Made by a program: the position numbers and the translations under genes. DNA of 64,000 nt, taken from positions 13,022,701-13,086,700 of the forward strand of contig OZ038450.1 in the NCBI GenBank assembly GCA_964036195.1, given 5' to 3'. Shown here in pieces: positions 8,120 through 63,300 of the stretch. The notes under the pieces were generated by a model, which saw only the letters and a program-made list of their open reading frames with translations, ran no database searches and had not been told where the DNA came from. The first letter of the stretch is position 1. Every line of letters starts with the position of its first letter. This DNA is from Sphaerolaimus hirsutus. Taxonomy: Eukaryota; Nematoda; Chromadorea; Monhysterida; Sphaerolaimidae.

Positions 8120-8319
8120 NNNNNNNNNNNNNNNNNNNNNNNNNNNNNNNNNNNNNNNNNNNNNNNNNNNNNNNNNNNNNNNNNNNNNNNNNNNNNNNNN
8201 NNNNNNNNNNNNNNNNNNNNNNNNNNNNNNNNNNNNNNNNNNNNNNNNNNNNNNNNNNNNNNNNNNNNNNNNNNNNNNNNNNNNNNNNNNNNNNNNNNNN
8301 NNNNNNNNNNNNNNNNNNN
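8120..8319. other. Assembly gap (200 N)
   Basis: Exactly 200 N, the same length as the gap at 19820-20019, so probably a fixed-size placeholder of unknown true length. Confidence 0.98.
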
Positions 8320-12427: not shown

Positions 12428-12665
12428 CATTTTGGCGCTGGCGCCATTGGCGCTTGGCGCCATGGCCCGCTGGCGCCTTTGGCGCTTGGCGCTAAGGTCC
12501 AGAAAAGCGCCAGACTTTTGGTGCTTGGCGCCATTTTGCTGTGGCGCCATTGGCGCTTGGCGCTGGTTCCGGAAAAGCGCCATGGCGCTTTTCTGGACCT
12601 CGGCGCCAAGCGCCAATGGCGCCAGACGACAATGGCGCCAAGCGCCAATAGCGCCAGCGCCAAAA
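12428..12665. repeat. GGCGCC / GGCGCTTGGCGC word array
   Basis: About 240 bp built from GGCGCC, CATGGCGC and GCCAAGCGCCAA words in inverted orientation. It gives spurious Ala/Pro/Met-rich ORFs on all frames. The same words form the bodies of the blocks at 13567-13780, 43723-44932, 48340-48600, 57290-57530 and 63042-63111. Confidence 0.85.
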
Positions 12666-12881: not shown

Positions 12882-13566
12882 TAACATAAATATGTGCCCA
12901 TACTACCGATGTTATAGTGTTAAGTGAAAATAATTTACTACAAAGTACTGCAACTGTATTTTTTTCTAATAGAATACCTCCAATAGAATGGCAACTCCAA
13001 TATAACGGCAGGTTTTGACAGGTTGTTGCACCCACGAAAACAAACGAACGGCAGGTGAATATTACATTGAAAGGGTGCCAAAACACAAAAATATAAAAAT
13101 GTATGGTTAGAACATTCAGAGCATTCAAATAGATATTAAATTTCAAATCAATGCTCTGATATTGAAACACTTTTTTAAGTTTCATTAAAAATAAAACAAT
13201 GTTAAAATGAAAAACGTGTGAAGAAATAGAATGTCAGCTTCCAGTTCCAATAGAACGGCACCTCCAATAGAATGGCAGGTAAAAGGTTGACAAAAATAGA
13301 ACATCAAGCTTCTATTAGAATAACTACATTATTTATACCTAATAGTGATCTAGATCACCAACAAATTGTTTTGTCTGATACTTCTTAAAAATATCATGTA
13401 AATATTCACTGAAAACTGATCATTATAAAAAATAAATACCAGTAAATATTTTGGGTGCAAACAAAGGCACATTTTCTCACTGTCTAAATATAAACACCTT
13501 AAGTAAAATACCTAAACACTTTATGAACTTAGTATTTCAACAGTGTTGAACAAATTTTTATTGTTA
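12882..13566. other. AT-rich stretch with TTCTAATAGAA remnants
   Basis: It contains scattered copies of CTCCAATAGAATGGCA-like words (12975-13320), also seen at 25121-25200 and 39971-40091. No gene is seen. Confidence 0.4.
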
Positions 13567-13785
13567 TTGTTGGCGCTTTTTTGGCGCCATTTAAAATGCT
13601 GGCGCCAGGCGCCAATAGCGCCACAGGAAAATGGCGCCAAGCGTCATGGCGCTTTTACAGATGCCGGCGCCAAGCGCCAATGGCGCCAGAGCATTTTAGC
13701 GCCAAGCGCCAAAAGCGCCATGGCGCTTTTTGGTTTGGCGCTAGCGCCAGGCGCCAGCGCCATGGCGCTTTTCCATCACTACCCC
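13567..13785. repeat. GGCGCC word array
   Basis: Dense GGCGCC, AGCGCCAA and GCGCCATGGCGC words ending TTTTCCATCACTAC. The CATCACTA end matches the right end of the 43723-44932 element, so this is probably a truncated member. Confidence 0.75.
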
Positions 13786-13978: not shown

Positions 13979-16900
13979 AAATGTGCACATATGTGGGCGT
14001 GCACTGTCGAAGGGGCGATTTTGCACTACCTGGTGCCAGTCCCAAACCCTGAAAACCCCCCTGAAAAGTGATTAAGACCCTTTAAAATGTCATGTGTCAT
14101 GCAAAAGTCCCTGTAAAATGTTAGGTGTCATGTAAAGGACCCTGTAAAGTGTCATCTGTCATGAAAAATCCCCTGTAAAGTGTCATGTGTATCTAAATAT
14201 TATTGCATCGTATCCAAATCTTACTTTTAGACATGATTTGAATGAAAATCGTAAGATTTGTATATGATACAACACTATTTGGATACACATGCACTTTACA
14301 GGGTCTTTTAAATGACATTTGACACTTTACTGCTTTTTTACATAACATCTGGCATTTTACAGCATCTTTTACATCACACATGCCATTTTACAGGGTCTTT
14401 TACACTTTAAAGGGTCTTTTACAGGGTCTGGAACTGCCCCTTGAAAAATATGAATTTGGACATGAGGCTGCAAGGTCATCATATTTACACAGGGCTGTAG
14501 TGTATTTTAGGCAAAGGTTAGTCCTGAGTAACTTAATTGGTTTTTATCTTTTGCGAGTCAATTTTATGTTTAAGAATTCAATTTTTGACATAAATATCAT
14601 CGAAACCTAACTGGAACAAAATTATCTCACAAGAAGTAGACTGAGTTAAGTGATGAACACAATGATGATTGTTCCAAACACTAGCTAGTGCCAAAGTAAA
14701 AAGGCACTGTATGCAGCAAGTGGTGTTTTTGTCATTTTTACAGCACCAATATTGTTGGTGCAATATGACCATAAAAAGTGTCATGGTAATTCACTTGCAT
14801 GGCACCAAACTCAAAAAGACCCACTTGTAAAGAGCCAAAGCAAAAATAAATGTCACATTTTTTTGCACCAAACTGCTAAAATGTAGCCAGTTCTTAAATC
14901 ACTAGTGACCAGTTTTGAATGTTTCCATGGTGCTGTGTACTGTGAATTTTTTTTACAGCCATTTTTCAAAATCTTTATTGCATGTGAGCAAACATTAGGT
15001 TGTGTGGAGACTATAATGGCAACTGTTTTTCAGGAAAAAGCTGAATTTTTGTATCTGCAAAATGTGGCATAACTGGGGATTGGCACAAGATTCCTTCAAT
15101 AAAAATAATACCAATTTTGATAAATTTACCAATTTTGCAAAATTTGTACTTCTTATCGTTCACTCTACTCTGTCTACTCACATATTGATTTTCATAATTT
15201 TCTGTTTTACAGCACCTGAAAATCGTGTCAGTTACATTTCACACTTTATTACATCAAAACATGTCACAAACAATGTTTCAGGTTAACTGACACACCGTGT
15301 ATCCGTTTCATTGTGTTGGGAAATGAAGAAAAGTGGAACAGGTGCCAGTCCCAGACCCTGTAAAATGCCCTGTAAAGTGTCAAATGTCATGCATAGTGTC
15401 AAAAGACATGGAAAATGCCGTGCGAAATGGCAACCGAGTTGCCATTTTGCAGGGCATTTTCCATGACTTTTGACACTTTATGGGGATTTTACAGGGTCTG
15501 GGAGTGTGTGCCCCCACAGAGCTGCAATGCCAAATGACACTGATGTCATCATAATGGAACCGCATAAAGATGCTATTGTGGATTTGTGCATTTTGGCGCA
15601 GTGCAATCATACGATTAGTGAGTGTGGGTTGAGATTTTTTCATATTTTATGTTTGTATGAACTCCACACTGTTTTTCAGTTTGATCAGGGTGTTTTTGAG
15701 AGACCTAACAACCTTTGCCCAGCTGGCTTGCATGCACAGCAGTTTTTCAAAACATGTTTGCTGAGCATTTGCAACGGAATAAAATGTTACTTCAGCTTTA
15801 GAGGACATTTTAGGTACCTTTCTGATGCCTTCCAACCATGGTGAACTAGGTATACTCGGCGGACATGACACTTAGAATGGAAACCTACCATAACCCATCT
15901 GAATAATGAACCAAAAATTATGCGGTTTTTACATCATCATATTTCATTCTTCCTATGTAGTAATTAATTACGAATTTACCACAATATTTTATTCATTAAA
16001 TTACTATATATCCTCGAATTAGTCCCCAGGGAAGTTATTTGTTCGTCAGAGTTTTTGAGGGGGAGTTATTCAAGGGGAGGAGTTATTCAAGGGGAGGAGT
16101 TATTCAAGGGGGGGGGGAGTTATTTTTTCCTCAGAAAACTTGATTTAATTCATTGTATGAATGCATTCTGTTAGCTCATGTAAACCAGGTATTTAATAGT
16201 TAAACCACAACAACAAAACAGTGTGTATACACTGCGTATACGTTATGTATCTGCTGTCGCTGCTACACGTTAACATTATTTTGTATTTCCATCGTTCATT
16301 TTTGTAAATTTTGTAAAATATTTTTCACCCAGAGGGGGGAGTTATTCGGAGGGGGGAATTATTTTTTTGTCAGACTTTTTGAGGGGCGTTATTCAAGGGG
16401 GAGGAGTTAGAGGAGTTCAAGGAGGGTCTTATTCGAGGATATACGGTATGGTAGGATTCCGCGTTAACTTTGTGGTCCGCCGAGTATATCAACTTTTTGT
16501 TGAAATCAAAATTCAGTTTTAAACTTCCTCCTGAACTCGTATGTGCACTCATCGATTTATTTCTTGTTAAGTCGTAGGAGCAATACATTGGACCCATCCA
16601 CCCCATTATCAATTACGTATACCTAATCCATTATCCACTCCCAGTCTTGTCCAACTCAACTTTGTAACTGCAAACATATTTTCAAGAAAAAATCTAGAAA
16701 ATGCACAAACATCTCAACCTGCAGGCACCACAGGCACATTCAGCTGGTGCCACTCCCAGACCCTGTAAAGAGCCCTGTGAAATGTCAAATGTCAAATGTT
16801 ATGCAATGTGTCAAAAGTTATGGAAAATGCCCATTTTGCAGGGCATTTTCCATGACTTTTGACACTTTGCATGACATTTGACATTTTACAAGGCTTTTTA

Positions 16901-17052
16901 CAGGGCCTGGAACTGTCCCCTGGTTTGCAGCTTTCTTGGCAAATGGCCATACCACATACCAGAAGCCTTGGGTAAGACCTAACAGCCCATTGGAACAGCA
17001 GTTTGATAAGGATGACTTTTTCCCCAAACACTGGGTGCCTTTAGAAGCTTAG
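13979..17052 (+). CDS. GT11-type alpha-1,2-fucosyltransferase-like gene
   Basis: Coding pieces: 13979-14031, 14440-14516, 15282-15341, 15520-15617, 16725-16746 and 16923-17052 (TAG 17050-17052). Read in order they give the GT11 signature: YVGVHCRRGDF (donor-binding HxRRGD motif), SSYLHRAVVYFRQR, RFIVLGNEEKWNR, the block NDTDVIIMEPHK then DLCILAQCNHTI, STTGTFSW/FAAFLANG, and a DFFPKHWVPLEA C-terminus. Known relatives are Golgi type II enzymes that add alpha-1,2-fucose from GDP-fucose; the membrane-anchor exon is not visible here. Phases agree throughout. However, pieces 1/2 and 5/6 are separated by foldback elements (14032-14439, 16747-16922) without usable GT-AG ends. Either the gene is broken by insertions or these elements are removed in an unusual way. 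The next tryptophan of the usual SWW motif is phenylalanine. Confidence 0.85.
14032..14439. mobile_element. Foldback element 1 inside fucosyltransferase coding sequence
   Basis: It starts GGTGCCAGTCCC and ends GGTCTGGAACTGCCC. The body is built of CCCTGTAAAGTGTCATG words in inverted orientation. It separates GDFALP from LEKYEFG, and removing it restores a continuous frame. The left edge of the large inverted duplication (14210) falls near its centre. Confidence 0.75.
14517..15281. other. Fucosyltransferase intron
   Basis: A 765-bp intron, donor GTTAGT and acceptor TTTCAG. AT-rich, with no element or exon recognised. Confidence 0.6.
15342..15519. mobile_element. Foldback element 2 acting as a complete intron
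   Basis: It is 178 bp, starts GTGCCAGTCCCAGACCCTG and ends CAGGGTCTGGGAGTGTGTG followed by CCCCCACAG. The whole interval between two phase-matched coding pieces is this element, with GT at one edge and AG at the other. It is the best introner-like candidate in the window. A mirror copy lies at 46196-46373. Confidence 0.75.
15851..16488. mobile_element. Foldback element TATACTCGGCGG with nested CCGTAT element
   Basis: Ends TATACTCGGCGGACATGACA and TGGTCCGCCGAGTATA are inverted. Nested inside is a CCGTAT-type element at about 16004-16446 (TATATCCTCGAATTAG to TTATTCGAGGATATACGG). A related outer element occurs near 23430-23632. It lies in the fucosyltransferase intron before the last exon. Confidence 0.7.
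16747..16922. mobile_element. Foldback element 3 inside the fucosyltransferase last exon
   Basis: It starts GTGCCACTCCCAGACCCTG and ends CAGGGCCTGGAACTGTCCC, then CTG. It splits the conserved GTFSW/FAAFL motif exactly. A 3-bp repeat, CTG, lies on both sides. Removing 176 bp restores the frame, but the interval ends in TG, not AG. Confidence 0.75.
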
Positions 17053-19539
17053 GCTTTAGATTAGCATTGATTGAATGTTTTTTTTTGCGTATCAATATTT
17101 CTGTGGTGCTACTATTGATGACGAAATGTGATAATTGATCACTGTTTTCATGTTTTTGGAGCTATTTTTATGTATCCATTGATATGAAAATAAACACTGC
17201 GGTAATGGGTCCACACACGCTAGTTGACAAATTTGTGTCAACTCAATGTCAACTAAATAACACAAAAAGAATTTTAACAGCAGCACACTTAACAGAATCA
17301 ATGAGAATCAATTGTCATTATGTAAAATTAACTATGCTCCACCAGACATGAAAGTTGAAATCATAAAATTCATCAAAATTTAATTGACACGAGGTCAGTT
17401 GACATTCAGCATGTGTGGCTCCATTTTACCATCCGACCAGCTCTTCGCGACCAATCTGAAGCACATGTGCACTTTTGGAAATGAAATTATTTTTTTCGAA
17501 ATATGCACCTTCAAAATTAAACTCGGGCGGTGTGAGATGAACTTATGCATTTTGACATGAATGAGACTGGTCATGGATGTGCACATTCGAAGTGAAAATT
17601 GTGATTTTACTGAAAATCAGTACCAATGTTTCTGCTAACAACATAGACTGCAATGCAATTGTTTGTCTCAAATGTGAAAGTATACATGTATGTCAAATCC
17701 ACGCTTCAATCGTGCTCTTTCAGAACGGTAGTCCTCAAATACGGGTCGGGTCACGTATGATAAATTGGCCGTATGTCACGTTGTCGATTGTCACGTATGA
17801 TCCAAGTTATCGGTTGCGTATTGTAAATATGAACGAGAGTGAAAGCACTCAACTCAAAGTGCTCAAAATCGCTGAAATGAGCTCCATTTTGTCAATTTAA
17901 ATCTTCATAATCGCTATTTTCGTCTAAATATGTAGATGGTTATATACCTACATTTAGCTATTTTATTTATAGCAATTTCGAAATAATTTTTGGCCGACTG
18001 TTTTTGGCCCGACCGATGACCTTATGTGAAGTTGGCATAAGTCCAATTTTCTGCTTGGATGCAAAAACGGGAACCATGCCGTATGATGACTTGGCAGCTG
18101 TGCGAAAATTTCGAAATCCTAAAAAAATATGAATGAAATAGGCTAACAATAGCTATATAACCATGTATAAAAACGAATATAGCGACTATGAAGGTGGGAA
18201 TTGGCAAAGTGGAGCACATTTGAGCGATTTTGAGCTAACTTCGAGCTTTTACGCTCATTCGTATAATAGGCAAGTGATAACTTAGGAATACGGCCAAGTC
18301 ATCATAAGTATAATACATCGATCCGCAATAACGTATTCTACGAACAAGAGTTCAAACGAAGACAAACGAACGAGAACGAAGACACAGAATCACCGTCCCA
18401 GCAACCAGTAATGGCCGCGGAACGCAATACAGCTACCGGAATTGGTCGCTAATGGGGCCCACAGCCTATGCTCATGTTCACCATCGTCAGCCGCTGTATA
18501 CAAACGGGTGTATCTAAAAATGTTTTTTTTGGACAGGTGCCAGCTGTACATACGGTCCTTCCTCGTTTTGGCCAGCTGCCAATTTGAGATACGGGTGTCT
18601 CCGTCAAATAGGATCGGGCCACGTATGAGTACCTGGCCATGATTCCAAGTTACCACTTGCGTATTATACGAATGAGCGTAAAAAATCAAATTCAGCTCAA
18701 AATCGCTAAAATGTGCTCCACTTTGCCAATTCCCACCTTCGTAATCGCTATTTCCCTTTTTTATACACGGTTATATAGCTAGTGTTAGCCTATTTTATTC
18801 ATATTTATTTCGGATTTCGAAAATTTGGCACAGCTGCCAAGTCCTCATATGGCATGGTTCCCGTTAAATACCAGTTCCGCGAATTTAAAAAAAAGAAAAC
18901 TGCGTCATTAGCAAGGTGCCAGTTCTTTGGGTCTACTCCCGCGATTTAACGCGATTACCCATTTGAGCCGCACGAAAACCTCGTCTTTTCGTCGGCTTAC
19001 CGCGTTCTTTGTGCATTTTAGTTGAGTGTCACTTTACACGTTTGGAACTATGCCAATTTCGCAATCGTTCGTAACGGATCGGGCTATTGGATTGGGCTAT
19101 TTATGACAAATTGGCCCACGTCCAAGTTATCGGTTACGTATTGTAGAAGTGAAAGTGAAAGCCCCAAAGTGCTCTCAATCATTCAAATTAGCCACATTCT
19201 ACCTGCTCGCACCTTCATAATCGCTATTTTCATCTATATACATGGTTATTTACCTATTTTTTAGCTATTTTATTTATAGCAATTGCAAAATAATTTTATG
19301 GCAAGCTGCCAACTTGTCATACGTGGTATTTCCCGGTACATCCCCGCATTTCTCGGCTGTTTTCGCCTTGCTACAGTGCCGCGTGCAAATTATTAGATTT
19401 TTTGACTCGATTATTCGCGCGGCGGAGCCATGCAAAGCGTGGGTAAACGGCAGAGCAGCGGCAGCCGCCGCGACGGCGGTCAGTTTGTGGGGTTCAATTG
19501 TCAATGCGGGGTTCGGTCGTTTTTTAGGGGGGTGTAGCG

Positions 19540-19614
19540 GCCGTAATGTAAACCCGGCCGTAATGTAGGCCCAGCCGTAATGTACGCCGACCCGGCCGTA
19601 AAGTAGGGGGTGCT
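19540..19614. repeat. GGCCGTAATGTAAACCC word array
   Basis: Tandem GGCCGTAATGTAAACCC and GCCGTAATGTAGGCCC units. Larger inverted arrays of the same word lie at 40196-40385 and 41233-41400. Confidence 0.8.
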
Positions 19615-19615
19615 A

Positions 19616-19819
19616 TTAGGGTTGGGGAACCGAACCGAGAACCGAGCACAATTTTGGAACCGAGAACCGAGAACCGGAACCGAAAAAAATACCCGAACCG
19701 GAACCGAGAACCGGCACTTAGACCCGGAACCGAACTAAAGAACCAAAAGAACCGAAATTTTTTACAATAATCGGCAGCCCCCCCCCCCTTCCCGGGTGAG
19801 AGTAGGAAGATGCATGGAA
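19616..19819. mobile_element. TAGGGTTGGGGAACCG element, cut by the gap
   Basis: It starts TAGGGTTGGGGAACCG and continues with AACCGAGAACCGGAACCG words, then a C run, and runs into the N gap. The end type matches the other TAGGG-type elements here. Its right end is not visible. Confidence 0.6.
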
Positions 19820-20019
19820 NNNNNNNNNNNNNNNNNNNNNNNNNNNNNNNNNNNNNNNNNNNNNNNNNNNNNNNNNNNNNNNNNNNNNNNNNNNNNNNNN
19901 NNNNNNNNNNNNNNNNNNNNNNNNNNNNNNNNNNNNNNNNNNNNNNNNNNNNNNNNNNNNNNNNNNNNNNNNNNNNNNNNNNNNNNNNNNNNNNNNNNNN
20001 NNNNNNNNNNNNNNNNNNN
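19820..20019. other. Assembly gap (200 N)
   Basis: Second run of exactly 200 N. Confidence 0.98.
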
Positions 20020-40385: not shown

Positions 40386-41232
40386 GCTGCTTATAGCTGC
40401 ATGAATAGAGAATCACTATTTATTTATTTTCATTTCATACTGCTATAATATAAAAAAATACACATGATATGGTTACCACCTGATTTACCGTATTTGCTTG
40501 AATAATCCCCATTGGGAATTATTATTTTGTCAAACTTTTTTGAGGGGAATTATTTTTTCGTCAAAATTTAAAGCATGTTTCTATCAACTCATTGTACAAA
40601 ATATGCATTATTCACACAATGTGTCGCGGCGCAGACGCACATGGTAGGTGTACTGTAAAGGCAATTCAAGTTAATTCAAATCAGGCAATTACATGGTCAA
40701 AAGTCATGGAAAATGCCCTGCAAAATGGCAACAGATTTTCCATTTTGCTGGGGGTTTTCCACGACTTTTCACACTTTGCATGGCATCTGACATTTTACAC
40801 AGTAAAAAGTCATGGAAAATGCCATTGCCTGAAACTGTAAAACTGACCCGAATACCTGGTTTACGTGCACCCGTTTTTGGGTCGGTATTTACAAATGCTA
40901 GCGCTGCATTGTTCTGCAAACAACGCGGCACTAGAGTTGGGAAACCAGAACTGAACTTCAGTACCTGAAACAGTTTTGGGTTTATTTTAGTTTACCAACG
41001 CTAGTTGCAACCAAAACTTCAACAACCCCCAAAACAACACATGCGTGTTTCATTTGTGACAATGCCAATCAGGGGGGTGGGGGGTTATGCATCAATCAAA
41101 AATATTGAGCTTGGAAGTGGTTGCGGTCCTGGCGGCCAAACATAAAGGGCAATGCATTGTTAGGCCTAATTTGTATTGTTATGTGCCCTTTGTGTTTGCT
41201 GCACCGCGCCCCCGTCGGTCCCGCCCGCTAAT
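40386..41232. other. Segment between the two CGTAATG arrays
   Basis: It contains a decayed CCGTAT-type left end (about 40487) and a TCAAAAGTCATGGAAAATGC piece (40690-40830) of the foldback family seen in the fucosyltransferase gene. No gene. Confidence 0.4.
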
Positions 41233-43363: not shown

Positions 43364-43722
43364 TTTATACATGGTTATATAGCTATTGTTAGCCTATTTC
43401 ATTCATATTTTCGCACAGCTGCCAAGTCATCATACGGCATGGTTCCCGTTTTTGCATCCAAGCAGAAAATTGGACTTATGCCAACTTCACATAAGGTCAT
43501 CGGTCGGGCCAAAAACAGTCGGCCAAAAATTATTTCGAAATTGCTATAAATAAAATAGCTAAATGTAGGTATATAACCATCTATATATTTAGACGAAAAT
43601 AGCGATTATGAAGATTTAAATTGACAAAATGGAGCTCATTTCAGCGATTTTGAGCACTTTGAGTTGAGTGCTTTCACTCTCGTTCATATTTACAATACGC
43701 AACCGATAACTTGGATCATACG

Positions 43723-44932
43723 TAGTGATGTAAAAGCGCCATGGCGCTGGCGCTTGGCGCTAGCGCCAAAGCAAAAAGCGCCATGGCGCTTTTGGCGCTT
43801 GGCGCCTTTTTGCTGTGGCGCCATTGGCGCTTGGCGCTGTGCTACGGAAAAGCGCCATGGCGCTTTTGGCGCTTGGCGCTATGATGTCGTGGCGCCATTG
43901 GCGCTTGGCGCTGGTGTTTTATAAAGCGCCAAAAAAGCGCCAAGTAGTACAAAAAAAATCATTTGTCTTATGTAAAAAGACTTTGCCTGCATGAGTTACA
44001 TAAGTAAATGTGTTACTGTAAGTGTGTTACAGGAAGAACAAACCCTCTATTTGCTTATTTTTGTAAACCATGTCCATGCAATTGCAATGATATTCAAAAC
44101 TTTTACCAACAAATGGGACTACACGACCTAGTTTTCAATGACATTTTATGTCAACTGGTTTTCAACCCAATTCAAGGCTTGACGACGAGCCGACGAACAG
44201 CGTTCAAATGCATAGTGTTGCATTATATTGCAAATGAAGTTGTATTGTTGCTGTGCTATGAAGTACCGGCATGAAGTACCTACCGTATTTTCTCGAAATA
44301 CACCCAGGGGGTTTATTTTTTCAGGGTGCAAATTTTGAGGGGAGTTTCGAGGGGGGCTTATCCGGAGGGGAATTTCTATGAAGGGTCGTGGTAAAGTATC
44401 GCTTTTTTGTACCCAATACGTAATCAATTGACCAAATAGGATATATTTTGGCCATATTATCATAGATCGTTCCATAAACAAGGCCATGTATAGCTGCGAT
44501 GTAAATTCACAGCTAACAAAATCTATCATGTTCATTGGATACATAATCTACCATATTCCAGACGGGGTGTATTTCAAGGGGGGGGGGGTTAATTGAAGGG
44601 GGTATTTCGAGGAAATAGTGTATATGTATATACAACACTGGATAGTATTACTTGTCAGCAAGCTTTGAATTGGGATGGGAACCAGTTGACAAACAAATAG
44701 ATAGCACTGCATTTGCATCGCTGCACTTTATGCAGTAAATTTTTTTGGCGATGGCGCTATTGGCGCTTGGCGCCATCATCCCCTGGCGCCATGCTCTAGA
44801 AAAGCGCCATGGCGCTTTTGGCGCTTGGCGCTATTTTGCTGTGGCGCCATTGGCGCTTGGCGCTCGCATGCCAAAAGCGCCATGGCGCTTTTGGCGCTTG
44901 GCGCCAAAAGCTTGGCGCTTTTTACATCACTA
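43723..44932. mobile_element. hAT-like element with GGCGCC words
   Basis: Ends TAGTGATGTAAAAGCGCC and GGCGCTTTTTACATCACTA; exact 8-bp TSD ATCATACG (43715-43722, 44933-44940). The left IR1 arm holds the empty site (CGTATGAT, 17794-17801). Each end is an array of GCGCCATGGCGC and TTGGCGCTTGGCGC words. The inner 0.75 kb is AT-rich with a nested CCGTAT element and no transposase seen. Confidence 0.94.
44283..44620. mobile_element. CCGTAT-type element nested in the GGCGCC element
   Basis: Left end CCGTATTTTCTCGAAATAC; right end GTATTTCGAGGAAATAGTG; TA on both sides. The body has G runs. Confidence 0.75.
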
Positions 44933-46097: not shown

Positions 46098-47292
46098 TAA
46101 TCGTATGATTGCACTGCGCCAAAATGCACAAATCCACAATAGCATCTTTATGCGGTTCCATTATTATGACATCAGTGTCATTTGGCATTGCAGCTCTGTG
46201 GGGGCACACACTCCCAGACCCTGTAAAATCCCCATAAAGTGTCAAAAGTCATGGAAAATGCCCTGCAAAATGGCAACTCGGTTGCTATTTCGCAGGGCAT
46301 TTTCCATGTCTTTTGACACTTTGCATGACATTTGACACTTTACAGGGCATTTTACAGGGTCTGGGACTGGCACCTGTTCCACTTTTCTTCATTTCCCAAC
46401 ACAATGAAACGGATACACGGTGTGTCAGTTAACCTGAAACATTGTTTGTGACATGTTTTGATGTAATAAAGTGTGAAATGTAACTGACACGATTTTAAGG
46501 TGCTCTAAAACAGAAAATTATTAAAATCAATCTGTGAGTAGACAGAGTAGAGTGAACGATAAGAAGTACAAATTTTGCAAAATTGGTTAATTTATCAAAA
46601 TTGGTATTATTTTTATTGAAGGAATCTTGTGCCAATCCCCAGTTATGCCACATTTTGCAGATACAAAAATTCAGCTTTTTCCTGAAAAACAGTTGCCATT
46701 ATAGTCTCCACACAACCTAATCTTTGCTCACATGCAATAAAGATTTTGAAAAATGGCTGTAAAAAAAATTCACAGTACACAGCACCATGGAAACATTCAA
46801 AACTGGTCACTAGTGATTTAAGAACTGGCTACATTTTAGCAGTTTGGTGCAAAAAAATGTGACATTTATTTTTGCTTTGGCTCTTTGCAAGTGGGTCTTT
46901 TTGAGTTTGGTGCCATGCCAGCATCCATGCCATGCAAGTGAATTACCATGACACTTTTTATGGTCATATTGCACCAACAATATTGGTGCTGTAAAAATGA
47001 CAAAAACACCACTTGCTGCATACAGTGCCTTTTTACTTTGGCACTAGCTAGTGTTGGGAACAATCATCATTGTGTTCATCACTTAACTCAGTCTACTTCT
47101 TGTGAGATAATTTTGTTCCAGTTAGGTTTCGATGATATTTATGTCAAAAATTGAATTCTTAAACATAAAATTGACTCGCAAAAGATAAAAACCAATTAAG
47201 TTACTCAGGACTAACCTTTGCCTAAAATACACTACAGCCCTGTGTAAATATGATGACCTTGCAGCCTCATGTCCAAATTCATATTTTTCAAG
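46098..47292 (-). pseudogene. Partial mirror copy of the fucosyltransferase-like gene
   Basis: Minus-strand copies of three coding pieces: 47216-47292 (LEKYEFG...YFRQR), 46374-46433 (RFIVLGNEEKWN) and 46098-46195 (DLCILAQCNHTI). The first piece (HCRRGDF) lies outside the duplicated segment. The last (GTFSW...HWVPLEA) is inside the 1,469 bp missing from this arm. It therefore lacks both the donor-binding motif and the C-terminus and should be non-functional. The intron-like foldback element 2 is conserved at 46196-46373. Confidence 0.85.
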
Positions 47293-47809
47293 GGGCAGTT
47301 CCAGACCCTGTAAAAGACCCTTTAAAGTGTAAAAGACCCTGTAAAATGGCATGTGTGATGTAAAAGATGCTGTAAAATGCCAGATGTTATGTAAAAAAGC
47401 AGTAAAGTGTCAAATGTCATTTAAAAGACCCTGTAAAGTGCATGTGTATCCAAATAGTGTTGTATCATATACAAATCTTATGATTTTCATTCAAATCATG
47501 TCTAAAAGTAAGATTTGGATACTGTAAAATAATACGGAACTTGCTGGGCTTTGTGTTCCCACTTACAGCGGGATTAGGTTTGGGATGACAAATATCGCAC
47601 CGAATACAGAGGATTTTAATCGATGTCGAAAATAATCGAACATATCGTCCAGATTCCCGAACATAAAAATATCAAGCAGTTTTTTATCGACTGTTTTAAT
47701 CCACGGAAACCACGATCGCACATTCGTCATTCAAATTCAATCAGGTAATTATACAGATAACAGTTTGCATTTTTATTCACTGCGGGAAATTTGAGCGAAA
47801 GTGCTGACT

Positions 47810-48241: not shown

Positions 48242-48339
48242 TTTACACACTTCACAGGGACATCAAAGCGTAGGAAGTGCCAGTTCCGCAAGTGGATACG
48301 TGACAAGAAAAGCGCACACTCATAAGTAGTGACAGAATG

Positions 48340-48600
48340 ATGCCATAGCGCTGGCGCATTTTATTTGCGCCATTGACGTTTGGCGCCCTTTTTGCTGGCG
48401 CCATTCAATGGCGTCATGCCGCAAATTTTGCTGGCGACCGGCGCCATTGTTTTTGGGGGTGCAGTATGAATGTTTCTGTAGGGAAACACAAGTTGAAATT
48501 GTAACATTCCATTGCGGGCGCCATTTTGGCGCCGAGCGCCATTGTTTCTGGCGCCATTTTCATCAGATAGCGCCAAGGTGGCACTGGCACCTGGTGCAAT
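48340..48600. repeat. GGCGCC-type word block
   Basis: GCGCCATT, GGCGCC and GGCGCCATTTTGGCGCC words, decayed. Mirror copy at about 57290-57530. Confidence 0.7.
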
Positions 48601-48808
48601 TTTTACCGTTAAACAGCGTTAAGCCGCCGTCACTGGCAATTCAAAATTAAAATAATTCACTTTGGTGGATCAAATTCAAACTTCACGTCAAACTATCGTA
48701 CCCAATCACATGATTTACATTTCGCATCGGCACGTCGTCATCGGTGCCATCCTGCCTGAAATTCACACACAAACGTTACACAAAAAAAGAAGAAAAACGA
48801 AGAGCCAA

Positions 48809-48971
48809 TTACGGTTCAAACAGGGCCACTTTTTCGGGCTGGGACCGGGAGCACAAATTTTTCTTATCGGGACCGGGACCGAGACGGGGGTGTCGGGACC
48901 GGAACCGGAACCGCCTCAGTCTGGAAATTTTACCGAACTATCTACCGGGACCGTGGTCCCGTTTCAACCCC
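48809..48971. mobile_element. GGTCCC-word element in ATG9 copy intron
   Basis: Mirror of 56909-57071; GGGACCGGGACCG words. Confidence 0.75.
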
Positions 48972-50084
48972 AGAGCCAACGAGCGCTCACTGGTGTGCGA
49001 CCATGTGCCGCAGGAACATGAGGTGCACGCTGGTCTCCAGGTTGGTGCCCGCCAGCGCCTGGTCCGACAGCGCCGCGCCCCTGAAATGGATAATATTATT
49101 TTGAATGAGTGGCGCTGAATGAGTTTTTTTTAGAATTTTCGGATCTGAAATTGCCCACTGGGATTACAACGGGGAATTCTGCTAGTCTACTGACCTTTTG
49201 CAATGAAATCTACCATTTCTCCTATGAATAAACAAAAAATGTTTTCTCATCACATTACACGATCAAACAATGGGTGAGTCTAGTACAAATTTTTTAGGTA
49301 ACTTTGTAGAGATACGGTATCAACGCACCTGAGCGCGTATCTAGACTGAAATCGTGGTGCCAAAAAACCGGACTGGTGCAGCGAAGCCAACAGAGAGTCA
49401 GCACCGTCATTTTGCTGATCTGGCGCCTCATCTGCGAATGGGAAAATAAACGAGTTCTTCTAGAAGTTGACATTCACTTTTTGGGATTCACAATTGCGGC
49501 CCACGCACTAATTGACACATGCGTGTCAAATGGCATTTGTCAACTCAGATTTCGCCTTCACGTGTCGCTGAGCGATCGCCAAATGCACATGTGGCAATGT
49601 TGAATAATAAATATAAATGTGGGTGGAAATTTGAACTGCACCAACCAGCTGCAGCTGCGAATGGAGCTCGCCCGCCGGGCAAAACACCATGTGCAGACGG
49701 CTCTGAAATTGTTTTTGAAACACAATTCACGTCATGTTTTTCAGTCAACTCTAAATGAACCAAAACCGAACCAAAAGCGGCGTGCTGAAGCAGCGGGAAC
49801 CCAGCGACGAGCGGGGCGACACTCTGCGCCATGGCGGCGCAGGCAGCGTCGCCGGAGTCGTACATTTGCTGCACCGTGATCGCGTTGCACTGGACGGACA
49901 GCGTGTTGGCGCCGTGCAACGCCTGCGCAAAGGACACGGAAACGAAATGAGAATGCAAGAGTGTTAAAAGGCTGGATATTTCACCACTTTTACAGTTTGG
50001 AAAGGGATAACATAAGTGATAAACGAAGATGTCAATTGTCAAGTCATATGTCAAGTGGCAAGCCCACTTCCAGCAGGGCTGTAT

Positions 50085-50940
50085 CCAGGGGGGCGGGGGA
50101 GGGGCTGCAGCCCCACCCTTCCCAGGGTGGAACCGGAAAAACTCCGGGAAGGTGCAATTTTCGGTACCAAATTTCAAGGTGACGTGTAAAGTTTTCGCGC
50201 GCAAGCGCGCGTTCCTCCCGCACACCTGGAATTATCTGCATATCAGTCCCAGTATACACAAATCCCTGAAATTGCACTCAATCCTGTACCCGTCGCTGTA
50301 TATGTACGTATATTTACATACATATACAGTCGTTTCTGGCACTAGCGCCAACGCCAATGGCGTCATGGCGTGGCGCCTACGAATGGCGCAAGCGCCATGG
50401 CGCCATTCCCTCGCTTTGTAGGCAAACTTTTAGGGGGGGCCAGGGCCGTATCCAGGGGGGGGGGCGGGGGGGGCTGCAGCCCCCCCCTTCCCGGGGTGAG
50501 ACAAGAAAGTGACCGGAAAATGCGACTTTCTCAACGTCAGCGTAAATTTTTTTTGCGCGCAAGCGCGCTTTCTTCACCAGACCTAGGTATTATCATCAGA
50601 TTATCTCCATGTGGCCGCAAATCGTTACAAATACACTCAATGTTATGCTTTTTGCTGTTTTGTATGTATATTTACATACATATACAGCGTTCCATGGCGC
50701 TGGCGTCAACGCCAATGGCGCCATGGCGTGGCGCCTACTAATGGCGCCATTCCGCCACTATGTAACTAAAATTTTAGGGGGGGGCTGAGCCCCCCCCCCC
50801 TCGCAGGCCTCCGTAAACAAGCAGCCCCCCCCGCTCAAAAATCCTGGATACGTCCCTGGGGGGGGCTGAGCCCCCCCATTCGCGGGGCTCCGTAAACAAA
50901 CAGCCACCCCCCCGCTCAAAAATCCTGGATACGCCCCTGA
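50085..50940. mobile_element. Nested CAGGG-type elements
   Basis: Repeated ends CAGGGCTGTATCCAGG, CAGGGCCGTATCCAGG and CCTGGATACGTCCCTG around G/C runs, with GCGCGCAAGCGCGC at 50197-50210 and 50555-50568 and GGCGCCATGGCG blocks. It lies in the intron between ATG9-copy exons. Mirror at about 54955-55800. Confidence 0.8.
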
Positions 50941-52459
50941 CTTGCAGTGACAAGTATTTCCAACTACAAATTTATTGGTCGCTGAATATCACATTAACTC
51001 TACTACTCGACAAAGTGCAAAATGGTGCAGATCATAACGAACCTTGCTTTTCAGAGTATCCAAAAATTGTTGGTCGTATACTTTGGTCGGTTTCCAATTT
51101 GGATTGGCGCCAGCAAAACGGATTAGAGACATCTCCACTTTGCCATTTGTGGTCTAAAAGTAAGGGTAAGTCAGAAAATGAACTTGGCAATCGGTGGAAT
51201 TTTAATTGGTGAAATATTTTCTAACTGGGTATTGTCAAGCATAGTACAAAAGTCGAGTACAAGTGTATTAACTACTTCAACTTCAACATACTCAAAGCTT
51301 GTAAACTATTAACTGAAAATTTGCAACAAAATTTTGTGCATTGTAAAAATGTTAACGGCGACAAAGATGGTTGATAATTGTGCGGCTGTGTCCAATGAAC
51401 CAACCCCATAGCAGCACGATGATGTCAAGCTTTCATTTATTTTTTAACTTCATTCAATCATATCTTTTTATTCTGAATCAACCTAAATACGTCCGCGTGC
51501 GCGCTCTATTTGGCGTTTCATTCCGTTCATATATATATTGATAAATCCAAAACTAAAATTCAACTGCGCAAACCTTGGTCATGGGGTCATTTTGGACGCC
51601 AGCCAAATCCAAATCATTGGCAACTTTCTCATCAGCAGTGCCATTCTGGTCATTAGTTTCACCATCCGCAAATCTCTGGTACTTTCTGTCGCCGTTGCAT
51701 TTCAAGTCCATCAGAGAGAAACTGCACATGTCGCCCGCGCCCGGCACGCTGATCTGCGATTTTGTGGATTTTCGGCGAAAATAAATTAGCCGTTTAAAGG
51801 CAGCGGGTTCTTACTGGAGTTGGAAAAAATATTTTTTCAATGGCCTAAGAGTGGGTATCAAAAATATGGTCTTAAAATCTGATACATTTGTGAGGTTTGC
51901 GAAATATAACCTCGCAAAATTTAAAAAATCAAATGCCTTCCCTACGTGTGCTGGCGGTGAATGACGGAATTTTTCACAATAATGTTAAATAATCAGAATC
52001 TTAAGCTAGGAACACATTCAGTATTCGAAATGGTGTTCCCATCTACAATTTGGTCAACTACAATATCACTAGAAACCGCAAAAAATAACTATAAACCAAC
52101 GGTGCTTTTGTAAAAGAACTCCACAATTTTGCTCGCATTTGGCCTGATGCCAAAAATGAGCACGAGCAGCGTAACGATCGGACTGAGCACTTCCTCGGCA
52201 AATAAATACAGTTTGTATGGAAACAAATTGGAGAATTCACTGCGCACCTGCTCCCCGTGTGTGCGGCGCCTGTGAAAGTGACGAATAGGCAAAAGTTGTG
52301 AAAAATTATGCATTTGCTTGGGAAAGCGCTACAATGGCGCTCCACACGCTGGAAACGCTGGAATGTCAACTGGTTTGGAGTCAACTCATTTTAGCTTAAT
52401 TTAGGTAGCAGGATTATTTTCAAGTGCATATGTGGCAATGTTGAAAAGGAATCAATATT

Positions 52460-57289: not shown

Positions 57290-57530
57290 GTGCCAGTGCC
57301 ACCTTGGCGCTATCTGATGAAAATGGCGCCAGAAACAATGGCGCTCGGCGCCAAAATGGCGCCCGCAATGGAATGTTACAATTTCAACTTGTGTTTCCCT
57401 ACAGAAACATTCATACTGCACCCCCAAAAACAATGGCGCCGGTCGCCAGCAAAATTTGCGGCATGACGCCATTGAATGGCGCCAGCAAAAAGGGCGCCAA
57501 ACGTCAATGGCGCAAATAAAATGCGCCAGC
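57290..57530. repeat. GGCGCC-type word block
   Basis: Mirror copy of the block at 48340-48600, downstream of ATG9. Confidence 0.7.
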
Positions 57531-57630
57531 GCTATGGCATCATTCTGTCACTACTTATGAGTGTGCGCTTTTCTTGTCACGTATCCACTTGCGGAACTGG
57601 CACTTCCTACGCTTTGATGTCCCTGTGAAG

Positions 57631-60320: not shown

Positions 60321-63300
60321 TCAGTCGTTGTATTGGGTCTTGTCCGAGTCCAGCCGGTTGTCCGTCTTTGGCGCGGACATGGGCTCCAGGGATGCGTCCA
60401 CGCTCATTGGCTGCGAGTGAAGGAGTGTTGCTGGGGAGGGTTTTGGTCCGGGATTTGTGGAAATTTGGTGGTGAACTAAAGTATTTCAAAAAATTGAAAA
60501 ACTTATTGGAAAAAGTTCGCAATTCGAAAAGGGTTTTTAAGAACGTTTTCCAAACGGTTTGCCATTGCCATTGATTGATTGGATTTGCCATTGGTTGAGT
60601 GAGCGATTTCTCCCTGGCACCAATTCTGCAAATGGATGGGTTGACTCGATTCAAGTAGCCTTGAGCTATTATTGTTGTTTTCGTTTACAAATTTGCTTGT
60701 CACTTTTAACCTCACTTTTCACCTAATTTTCACTTACTTCAAGTTCGATTATCACCACCACCTTTCTGGTCACTTTCCACTACACTTCGCGGAACTGGCA
60801 CCAGCTTTTTCGTTAGTACCTTAATAGCGGTGTTATACGGCACGGCCATTTCTACCTACCGTATAAACTCTAATATGACAGAAAAATACCCCCCCCCCCC
60901 CGCCCCCGGGGACTTATTCTAATACGGTATTAATCATCTTCACCCCCGACCTCACAGTTTTGCTACCGGCTTTGCCCTTGAGCCTGTCGCGCAGTCTGTT
61001 GGTGGGCGCGGTGCGCAGGTTCCACTCGTTGCCGCCCTTGGCTATGCTGCGCGCCTTGGGCGGCTTGCTGCTGGGCGGCGGCATGGTGTACTTGCTGGGC
61101 GGCGGCATGGTGTACTTGCTGCCGCGCGGCAGAGCCACCGACTTGGCCGGGGGCACTCTGCGATCGGTGCCGCTGGTAGTAAGATGCACTCGTTAAGTTG
61201 AGCATCGTTTTGACTATTTTTTGATGGTCGCCATTGATGGCCATTTTGTGGCGGAAATTTTCGAGGCTTTGAGCACTTTTGAGTTTGCAGGAATGATCAG
61301 TCCGTCAACTACTGTTGTCGGAGATCAAAAAAGATTGATTTAGCCCCACTAGTTGGATGTCAACTAAATTAGGGTTAATTATGAGACTTCAACTATGTGT
61401 TATGGCATAGGTAGTTAATTTTATGTAGTGACAGTAAATTTTCACTGTTTCTGTAAAGTGCGATGCTCTAAAAATGTTTTTTTTTGTGTTGTAGTTGACA
61501 TTAGCTGGCATTCAGTTGACAAAAATTTGCAATGTCGACCAGCTAGTAGGGTCCCGTTCTGGCAAAACTCAAATGTCCTTTCAGTACAGATTTATCAGTT
61601 GCGAAAATTTCGGCCGTAAACTAGTGTGAGCCACACTGCGATGTACTTACCCTGTGCCGGGTTCGCCGCGTGCTTTCCGCAGGTTCTCTGTCTGTGTTTT
61701 GGTCGTGTGTTGGCTCTTGGCCGACCGGTCGGTTTGCCTGCGAGACAATGGCGGGTGAACGATAAATGTGCCTACACACGCTAGTCTTCTACAGAATTAT
61801 CAAAAAAATTCGAACACTCGCACATAAACTTTGAATGCATTCCAATTGACCGGAATGGGTCATTTTTGATCTCCGTCAACAACGGTTGGCGGACAGTTCA
61901 TTCCGGTGAACTCATCTTCGTTCATAACTGATCAACGAGTTTTCAAATTTTGAAATTTCCGCAGAAAACTATAGGTAGGTAGTTGGCTTGGGGCCAATGG
62001 CAGTACAGAAAACACAAAGCGTGGCCGAGAGCTCACCCGGCCGTGTGCGTCGACTTTGTCTTGACGTGCGACGTGGACTTGCCCTCGGCGCCGGTCTCCT
62101 CCGTCTCGTCGCACTCGGTGCGCGCGATCACGCCCGCGTCGGACAGGTCGAGAGTCTCGCCGTGGCACAGCACCGTGAACGGATGGTCCTGCGCGTGGTG
62201 TGGGGTTGTAATGGGTAATTGCATCTGGTGGCAGTTCCGCAAAATGAGAAGTGAGAAGTAAAATGCCAAAGGCGAAGTATAAGCGCAAAGGCGAAGTGAA
62301 ATGGCAAGTAAATTGGCAAGTGAAATGGCGAAAGCGAAGAGAAATTACTTTTTATTTTTTTCTTCGCTTTTGCCAATTCACTTGCCGTTACACTTCGCCT
62401 TTGCGCTTTTACTTCGCCTTTGCAATTTCGCTTCTCATTTTGCGGAACTGGCCTCTGGTGGCAGTCCCGAGCCCTGTAAGGTGTGAAGTCAAGTGCCAAA
62501 TGTCGTACCAATTTTATCAATTGTCATGTAAAGTGTCAGGGAAAGTGCAGACATGCAAATGCGCTGCATACATTTTTTTGTGACATCACAAAAGACAATC
62601 GAAGTAAGTGTCTGTTTGGCCAGCGCTTTGTCGTGGCAGCAAAACGCAGACGGGTTCAGACTGTCGCCAGTGTGGTGACGCAATTCGTACAGTAGCTTTC
62701 AATCAAAAGATAGGAAAATTCAAAATTAACCCTTCACTCTGGAAAACTCAAATGCGTTTAAAGCTGATGCAATTATCAGCTTTTCAATGAATATTTGTCA
62801 AAATTTTCGTAGAAAACTAGTGTGTGTGTGGCAATCTTTATGTATTTATGTTCAGGCATACGATAATCCTCTGGTCTGGCCGTTCTTCGGTGAGCCTGTG
62901 CAGTTCCATCTTGACGTGGTTGTAGTGGCCGCTGGCGCCGGTGGTGAACGTGCCCCAGTGGATCGCCACCGAACGTTGCGACTCCAGGTTCACGTGCATC
63001 TGTGCGTGTGCTTTCGCGGGATTTCACATATTTATGATTGGGTGATGATGTAAAAGCGCCATGGCGCTTTTGGCGCTTGGCGTTCAAGTCCTGGCGCTTT
63101 TTACACCACTAGTGAGTATTCGGAGTATTCGTGATTCGGTCTAAGAAAAGGCTGAGATTTTTATGCGATTAATTTACGATACTTTGAAATGTGAGGGCAT
63201 TCGTCATGAGCGGGGTGCGGGTGCGTCGGTTTGCATGCGTTACCACTAGTGATGGAAAAGCTATAGGAAAATAAAATTGCCGCCTAACGCCACAGAAAAG

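Follow-up and report, generated by a model that had tools for sequence, protein, structure and literature searches.

Background

Introners are known from many eukaryotes and, in the survey given in PMC9860276, from only two groups among animals; target duplications and terminal inverted repeats occur in many of their families, not in all. Here we describe three elements (E1, E2 and E3) lying in a GT11 fucosyltransferase gene of the nematode Sphaerolaimus hirsutus. The introners of the type drawn in Figure 2C of Gozashti et al. 2022 (PMC9860276) are likewise transposon-like, with ends that coincide with the intron borders, and there as here the 5' splice site is attributed to the element and the 3' splice site to the target duplication. 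The target in that figure is 4 bp long, whereas ours is a 3-bp CWG, half-way strict, whose CTG form would yield GT-TG introns.

Among transposons, CWG targets are known from NuwaI, a group of PHIS/Harbinger that PMC4482050 reports from 16 animal genomes and from animals only. The CWG target duplication is common to NuwaI and to our elements (E2, E3 and, in two paralogues, E1). The terminal repeats of NuwaI usually begin GGG; here the 3' repeats of E1 and E3, read inward, begin GGG, whereas the 5' repeats begin GTG. Intron-like behaviour is not among the features that the NuwaI account sets out (PMC4482050), and a scan of 20 open reading frames of our stretch gave no PHIS-like DDE transposase.

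Other systems share the non-canonical ends. The introner elements of Amoebophrya, as presented in PMC7789003, are likewise hairpins with direct repeats of 3-5 nt at their borders, but over 60% of the introns there are non-canonical, whereas the introns adjoining our elements are GT-AG when read by eye. Euglenid nonconventional introns have in common with ours non-canonical borders joined by base pairing; the CAG/CTG pair that PMC4770533 describes at +4..+6 and -8..-6 is, however, absent from those places here. Euglenid-type borders were rejected, as E1 and E2, with borders fixed by paralogues, carry CAG at +5..+7 and not at the required places. Human TG 3' splice sites are reported in PMC2374985 solely in cases where a nearby AG can be used instead; the GT-TG combination is shared, but within the ranges tried E1 and E3 were not restored exactly by any AG border. 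Finally, in SOS splicing (PMC13247085) a DNA transposon is removed from animal mRNA, as we infer for the present elements. That pathway is depicted as a response to insertions, whereas the elements studied here have persisted through gene duplications.

Results

The window, by which we mean the whole stretch of 64,000 nucleotides analysed (G000:C1:13022701-13086700, in a 348-Mb assembly of 762 contigs), contains animal-like genes, and the C-terminal half of a GT11 fucosyltransferase is encoded at its positions 13979-17052. A Pfam match of the joined exons to GT11 (PF01531, E 1.6e-23, covering 163-296 of the 298 profile positions) is in keeping with the identity proposed in a preliminary description of this DNA. 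On the plus strand, exon a (13979..14032, CTYVGVHCRRGDFALP) closes with the target CTG at 14030-14032 and is followed by E1 (14033..14440), which starts GTGCCAGTCCC, ends CTGCCCC and has both junctions present in four paralogues; a second target copy, TTG in the window but CTG in two paralogues (C7:4.90 and C7:5.04), occupies 14441..14443. Exon b (14444..14516), an intron that reads as canonical (GTTAGT..TTTCAG, 14517..15281) and exon c (15282..15341, closing with the target CAG at 15339-15341) lead to E2 (15342..15516; start GTGCCAGTCCC, end GTGTGTGCCCCCA), whose second target copy, CAG at 15517..15519, has the form of a canonical 3' splice site. After exon d (15520..15617) and a further intron of canonical reading (GTGAGT..TGCAG, 15618..16724), exon e (16725..16746), encoding TTGTFS plus two bases of W, closes with the target CTG at 16744-16746; then come E3 (16747..16919; start GTGCCACTCCC, end CTGTCCC), its second target copy CTG (16920..16922, TG in 4/4 paralogues) and exon f with the stop codon (16923..17052).

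The three elements are copies of one family. Each begins GTGCCA(G/C)TCCC and shows terminal inverted repeats with 3-nt direct repeats at its borders. The 3' ends before the triplet are CTGCCCC in E1, GTGCCCCCA in E2 and CTGTCCC in E3, and with the triplet included the borders read CCCCTTG, CACAG and CCCCTG, respectively. Each element folds into a single long hairpin (RNA minimum free energies of -194.9, -119.2 and -108.6 kcal/mol for E1, E2 and E3; z of -18.9, -15.8 and -16.4), with none of 100, 200 and 200 shuffles equally stable. The preliminary description had already recognised three foldbacks of one family with a common GTGCCA start and had stated their ends, all of which we recovered, as we did its extents of E2 (15342-15519) and E3 (16747-16922). 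It had placed E1 one base too early, at 14032: the GTGCCA begins at 14033, and the removal that matches the paralogues is 14033-14443, giving ALP|EKYEF (C2 paralogue: RRGDFTDPEKYKHGH), whereas taking out 14032-14439 would likewise keep the frame, at the cost of one additional Leu. Alignment of the arms lent no support to an initial suspicion that E2 and E3 are oppositely oriented.

A 3-bp CWG target flanks the elements on both sides (E1, CTG/TTG; E2, CAG/CAG; E3, CTG/CTG). Since two paralogues have CTG behind E1, the TTG of the window is probably a later change. CWG starts at 19 of the 433 positions of the joined GT11 coding sequence, so that p is about 8e-5 for all three insertions to fall at CWG, a post hoc figure; the strong site preference suspected earlier is thus one for CWG. 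From these features we consider it very probable that the element behaves like an introner, E1-E3 being a non-autonomous hairpin DNA transposon (MITE) that duplicates CWG on insertion.

Several GT11 family loci exist in the genome, and six paralogues (C2, C7:7.84, C7:28.80, C7:28.84, C9:10.41 and C9:10.45) are uninterrupted at one or more of the three sites, where they read RRGDFTDPEKYKHGH (E1), KWNRKAMPN (E2) and TTGTFSWFAAFLANG (E3). These empty sites are exact, and therefore the borders are fixed, with no residue gained or lost. The junctions of E1, E2 and E3 are all present in four loci, namely that of the window (C1), C7:5.03, C7:5.04 and C7:4.90. Over exons c-f (306 bases, the six pairs of these four loci) pS was 0.083-0.166 and pN 0.008-0.020, that is, a dN/dS of 0.06-0.15, with Fisher p values of 0.004, 2e-4 and 6e-5 in the three pairs tested, the pairs not being independent. 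Between C1 and C7:5.03 we counted 7 differences in the 439 bases of exons a-f, 5 synonymous and 2 nonsynonymous. Because this constraint, measured in four paralogues of one gene, is seen in loci that bear the elements, the subfamily must have stayed under selection with E1 and E3 present. The empty sites, the duplicated target and the purifying selection seen in element-bearing loci together favour the earlier suggestion of transposon-derived intron gain. The C7:5.03 gene is likely to be full length: it has an N-terminal-like exon (E 0.001 with a probe sequence; a second match reached only 0.54), and the 49-residue N-terminal piece alone had no Pfam match.

These values bear on the possibility that the CTG copies are ordinary gene-breaking insertions, any target-duplicating insertion being trivially restorable on paper. 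The window itself offers some ground for it: the N-terminal half of its GT11 gene was looked for in the window and not found, and a second, inverted GT11 copy, which retains E2 (46196..46373, minus strand, 98.3%) and the right half of E1 (47293..47522, minus strand, the match breaking near the hairpin centre), has lost the last exon and E3. Moreover, the exons of C1 and this second copy differ by 1 change in 231 bases, too few to show constraint. Gene destruction, as raised in the preliminary description, is not supported for the family, where dN/dS is 0.06-0.15 among four paralogues all carrying E1-E3. Taken with the open frames and uninterrupted alignments of other genes described below, this makes gene breakage quite improbable.

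The inverted copy lies in one of two inverted duplications of the window (14210-19616 versus 47522-41320, and 48250-52459 versus 57630-53436, each with about 98-99% identity), and these may reflect segmental duplication or a misjoining of haplotypes. Two runs of exactly 200 N (8120-8319 and 19820-20019) are probably scaffold joins; GH15 exons (PF00723), which we take to be of the phosphorylase-kinase type, lie at 5.5-7.8 kb and the gene stops short of the first of these runs. A Lactamase_B_2 gene (PF12706, 60900-64000, minus strand), presumably of the NAPE-PLD type, carries the decayed end of a family member within or close to one of its introns; at 62458..62480 on the plus strand, near exons of a minus-strand gene, a diverged family end follows CTG, and 40696..40823 holds a truncated family copy devoid of terminal repeats. 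Another repeat family, whose terminus GTGCCAGTTCCGC is similar, occurs at 62232-62450 and 60804 (minus) and at 48277-48590 and 57290-57603, one copy being flanked by CAG, and palindromic repeats of GGCGCC/AGCGCC units are found in several copies (12430-12665, 13554-13782, 43722-43959). Rfam and tRNA searches gave nothing useful.

With E2 as the query, 1394 first-look candidates were obtained in the genome, of which the best 40, that is the most E2-like, were scored; leaving out the GT11 copies (L001-L003, L041 and L042), 37 copies were tabulated. These include two near-identical loci (L016 and L027), one copy anchored wrongly by the finder (L010) and one of 169 nt with CTG/CTG flanks (L008), which reaches 507 nt when paired with a further element's end downstream. 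The flanks of these 37 were CAG/CAG in 14, CTG/CTG in 10 (24/37 for both kinds), CTG/CAG in 2, CCG/CAG in 2, CAT/CAT in 2 and seven single combinations in the remainder. CWG was the 5' flanking triplet in 30/37 copies versus 3/111 control triplets, and both triplets were identical in 26/37 versus 3/111, six of these 26 pairs having needed a one-base 3' shift that was denied to the controls (20/37 without it). E1-E3 and the 37 copies, which are putative introns, are alike to near both splice borders. The flanks were GC-rich (0.53 or more) in 27 of the 37, the window average being about 0.42. A crude open-frame test favoured the sense strand in 19/37 and the antisense in 12/37, and from the latter figure many copies may be something other than sense-strand introns. 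At one locus, L032 (G000:C16:19804600-19806600), GTGCCAG stands at either end, and on the opposite strand, where the copy would read CAG..CAG, there is an open frame of 358 codons. Exact-ended copies numbered 196 for CAG..CAG, 113 for CTG..CTG and 56 for CTG..CAG genome-wide, exonic or otherwise, and 0 for the reversed controls; CTG ahead of the longer 5' end was found 434 times. Given that CTG..CTG is less frequent than CAG..CAG and that CTG..CAG occurs at all, AG may be favoured at the 3' end.

Several copies interrupt other conserved genes. When the flanking peptides were joined by exact removal of the element, the frames were open and the alignments to proteins of solved structure gap-free at the junction for a CTG/CTG copy in IFT70 (8bd7, E 1e-23), a CTG/CTG copy (8xiu, 1.5e-23) and a CAG/CAG copy (8jsw, 1.4e-26) in VMAT, and a CTG/CTG copy in an ABHD10-like gene (6ny9, 2.8e-9; listed as mycophenolic acid acyl-glucuronide esterase, which we take to be ABHD10). 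The elements lie in the sense of the gene in 7/7 copies of known strand (E1-E3 plus these four), all chosen as coding-looking in sense. Below the cut-off, Pfam hinted at a GPCR-like gene for one CTG/CTG copy (0.025) and at an ANF-receptor-like gene for one CAG/CAG copy whose element starts GCGG (0.0043); other joined peptides in the same scan had no match, and that of L012, with no domain match above the cut-off, was not counted as a verified gene.

The 3' end follows the target. E1 and E3 end in TG in 4/4 element-bearing paralogues, and the AG or TG agrees with the target triplet; on these grounds the earlier proposal of introns caught at different stages was rejected. From the borders it is the target triplet, not the stage of decay, that is predicted to decide the intron class, CAG giving GT-AG and CTG giving GT-TG. 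Within the donor and acceptor ranges tried, one GT/GC-AG pair restores E2 exactly, and none was found that does so for E1 or E3. A canonical rescue can nevertheless be drawn, in which an AG acceptor in the terminal repeat (TTTTACAG|GG) bypasses the CTG copies and leaves slightly altered proteins. The inner terminal repeat of E3 has a good-looking acceptor of this kind at 16900-16903 (TTTTACAG is also in E1 and E2); joining the donor at 15618, after exon d, to the acceptor 16903 is in frame (HTI-RPGTVPW-FAAFL), and so is the GC donor of E1 at 14035 with 14424. The exon e that would be skipped is, however, constant (STTGTFSW in 4/4 paralogues, all changes being silent), whereas the residues of the bypass differ among them (RPGTVPW, RSGSAPW, RSGSAPW, RSWSAPW). 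On account of this silent change in exon e against drift in the bypass residues, we argue that E3 is excised at GT..TG. The IFT70, VMAT and ABHD10 alignments, from peptides joined by exact removal, likewise have no insertion at the junction. Canonical rescue is hence highly improbable as the general explanation, and minor bypass transcripts through TTTTACAG|GG, in frame from exon d, are possible.

A different reading is that the CTG copies, or all copies, leave the transcript by hairpin-guided, spliceosome-independent excision of the SOS type, by cutting and RTCB ligation. E1-E3 and nine other copies sampled (-136 to -169 kcal/mol) fold as strong hairpins, CAG and CTG copies occur side by side in VMAT, and PMC13247085 gives an account of a metazoan route by which transposons are cut out of mRNA. 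On the other hand, the 5' GT is retained in 4/4 copies of E1, E2 and E3 although the following bases have changed (in E3, GTGCC to GTTCC), and the 3' ends remain pyrimidine-rich, as expected of splice sites. We therefore regard SOS-like excision as unlikely.

The stability of the hairpins was also compared with random substitutions of the C1 copies. In six comparisons of E2 or E3 with a C7 copy, 0/60 simulated sequences were as stable. For the second C1 copy of E2, which is nearly identical, the figure was 8/60, and for E1 it was 0, 5 and 1 of 25; the hairpins of two copies of E1 and one of E3 were clearly weaker than those of C1. Selection on the hairpin was set aside, as the null takes a copy of today as its starting point, and the stability is also explained if the copies descend from a better hairpin, such as the nine above.

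Discussion

The borders suggest how a single insertion could yield an intron. The terminal GT of GTGCCA, placed next to CWG, would create CWG|GT as a 5' splice site, and the pyrimidine-rich 3' end, CTG(C/T)CCC, followed by the second CWG would serve as the 3' splice site, the coding sequence being restored exactly once the element and one CWG are removed. At a CAG target ordinary GT-AG splicing would follow, giving a standard intron in one step. At a CTG target the product would be a GT-TG intron, and we find it slightly the better wager that the spliceosome excises it with the hairpin holding the ends together; hairpin-guided excision like SOS splicing, independent of the spliceosome, is a rather doubtful route for these copies, as is any other. 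That the elements are removed from the mRNA at the CWG borders is deduced from coding constraint. Our leaning towards the spliceosome comes from the fact that the GT is kept while the adjoining bases change.

On balance, we are inclined to think that one transposon family generates two intron classes in an animal genome, distinguished solely by the middle base of the target triplet, with CAG targets yielding GT-AG introns and CTG targets constitutive GT-TG ones, and that the GT-TG class, possibly a hundred introns or more, sits in conserved genes and is tolerated by virtue of the element's own hairpin. The open PMC literature gave no recognisable paper on a CWG-target introner and, as far as that literature shows, three things are apparently new: such an introner, its division into two classes set by the target, and conserved genes with GT-TG ends.

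It is the GT-TG ends in conserved genes that are surprising. The copies provide paired natural experiments, in which element, hairpin and 5' end are the same and the 3' end is AG in some copies and TG in others, even within VMAT. With a CWG target next to the terminal GT, the target preference itself would encode both CAG|GT and the 3' AG. The system may thus offer a route to study the birth of introns, in which a one-step conversion of transposon to intron, and the possible substitution of RNA structure for the AG normally required of a 3' splice site, would both be testable.
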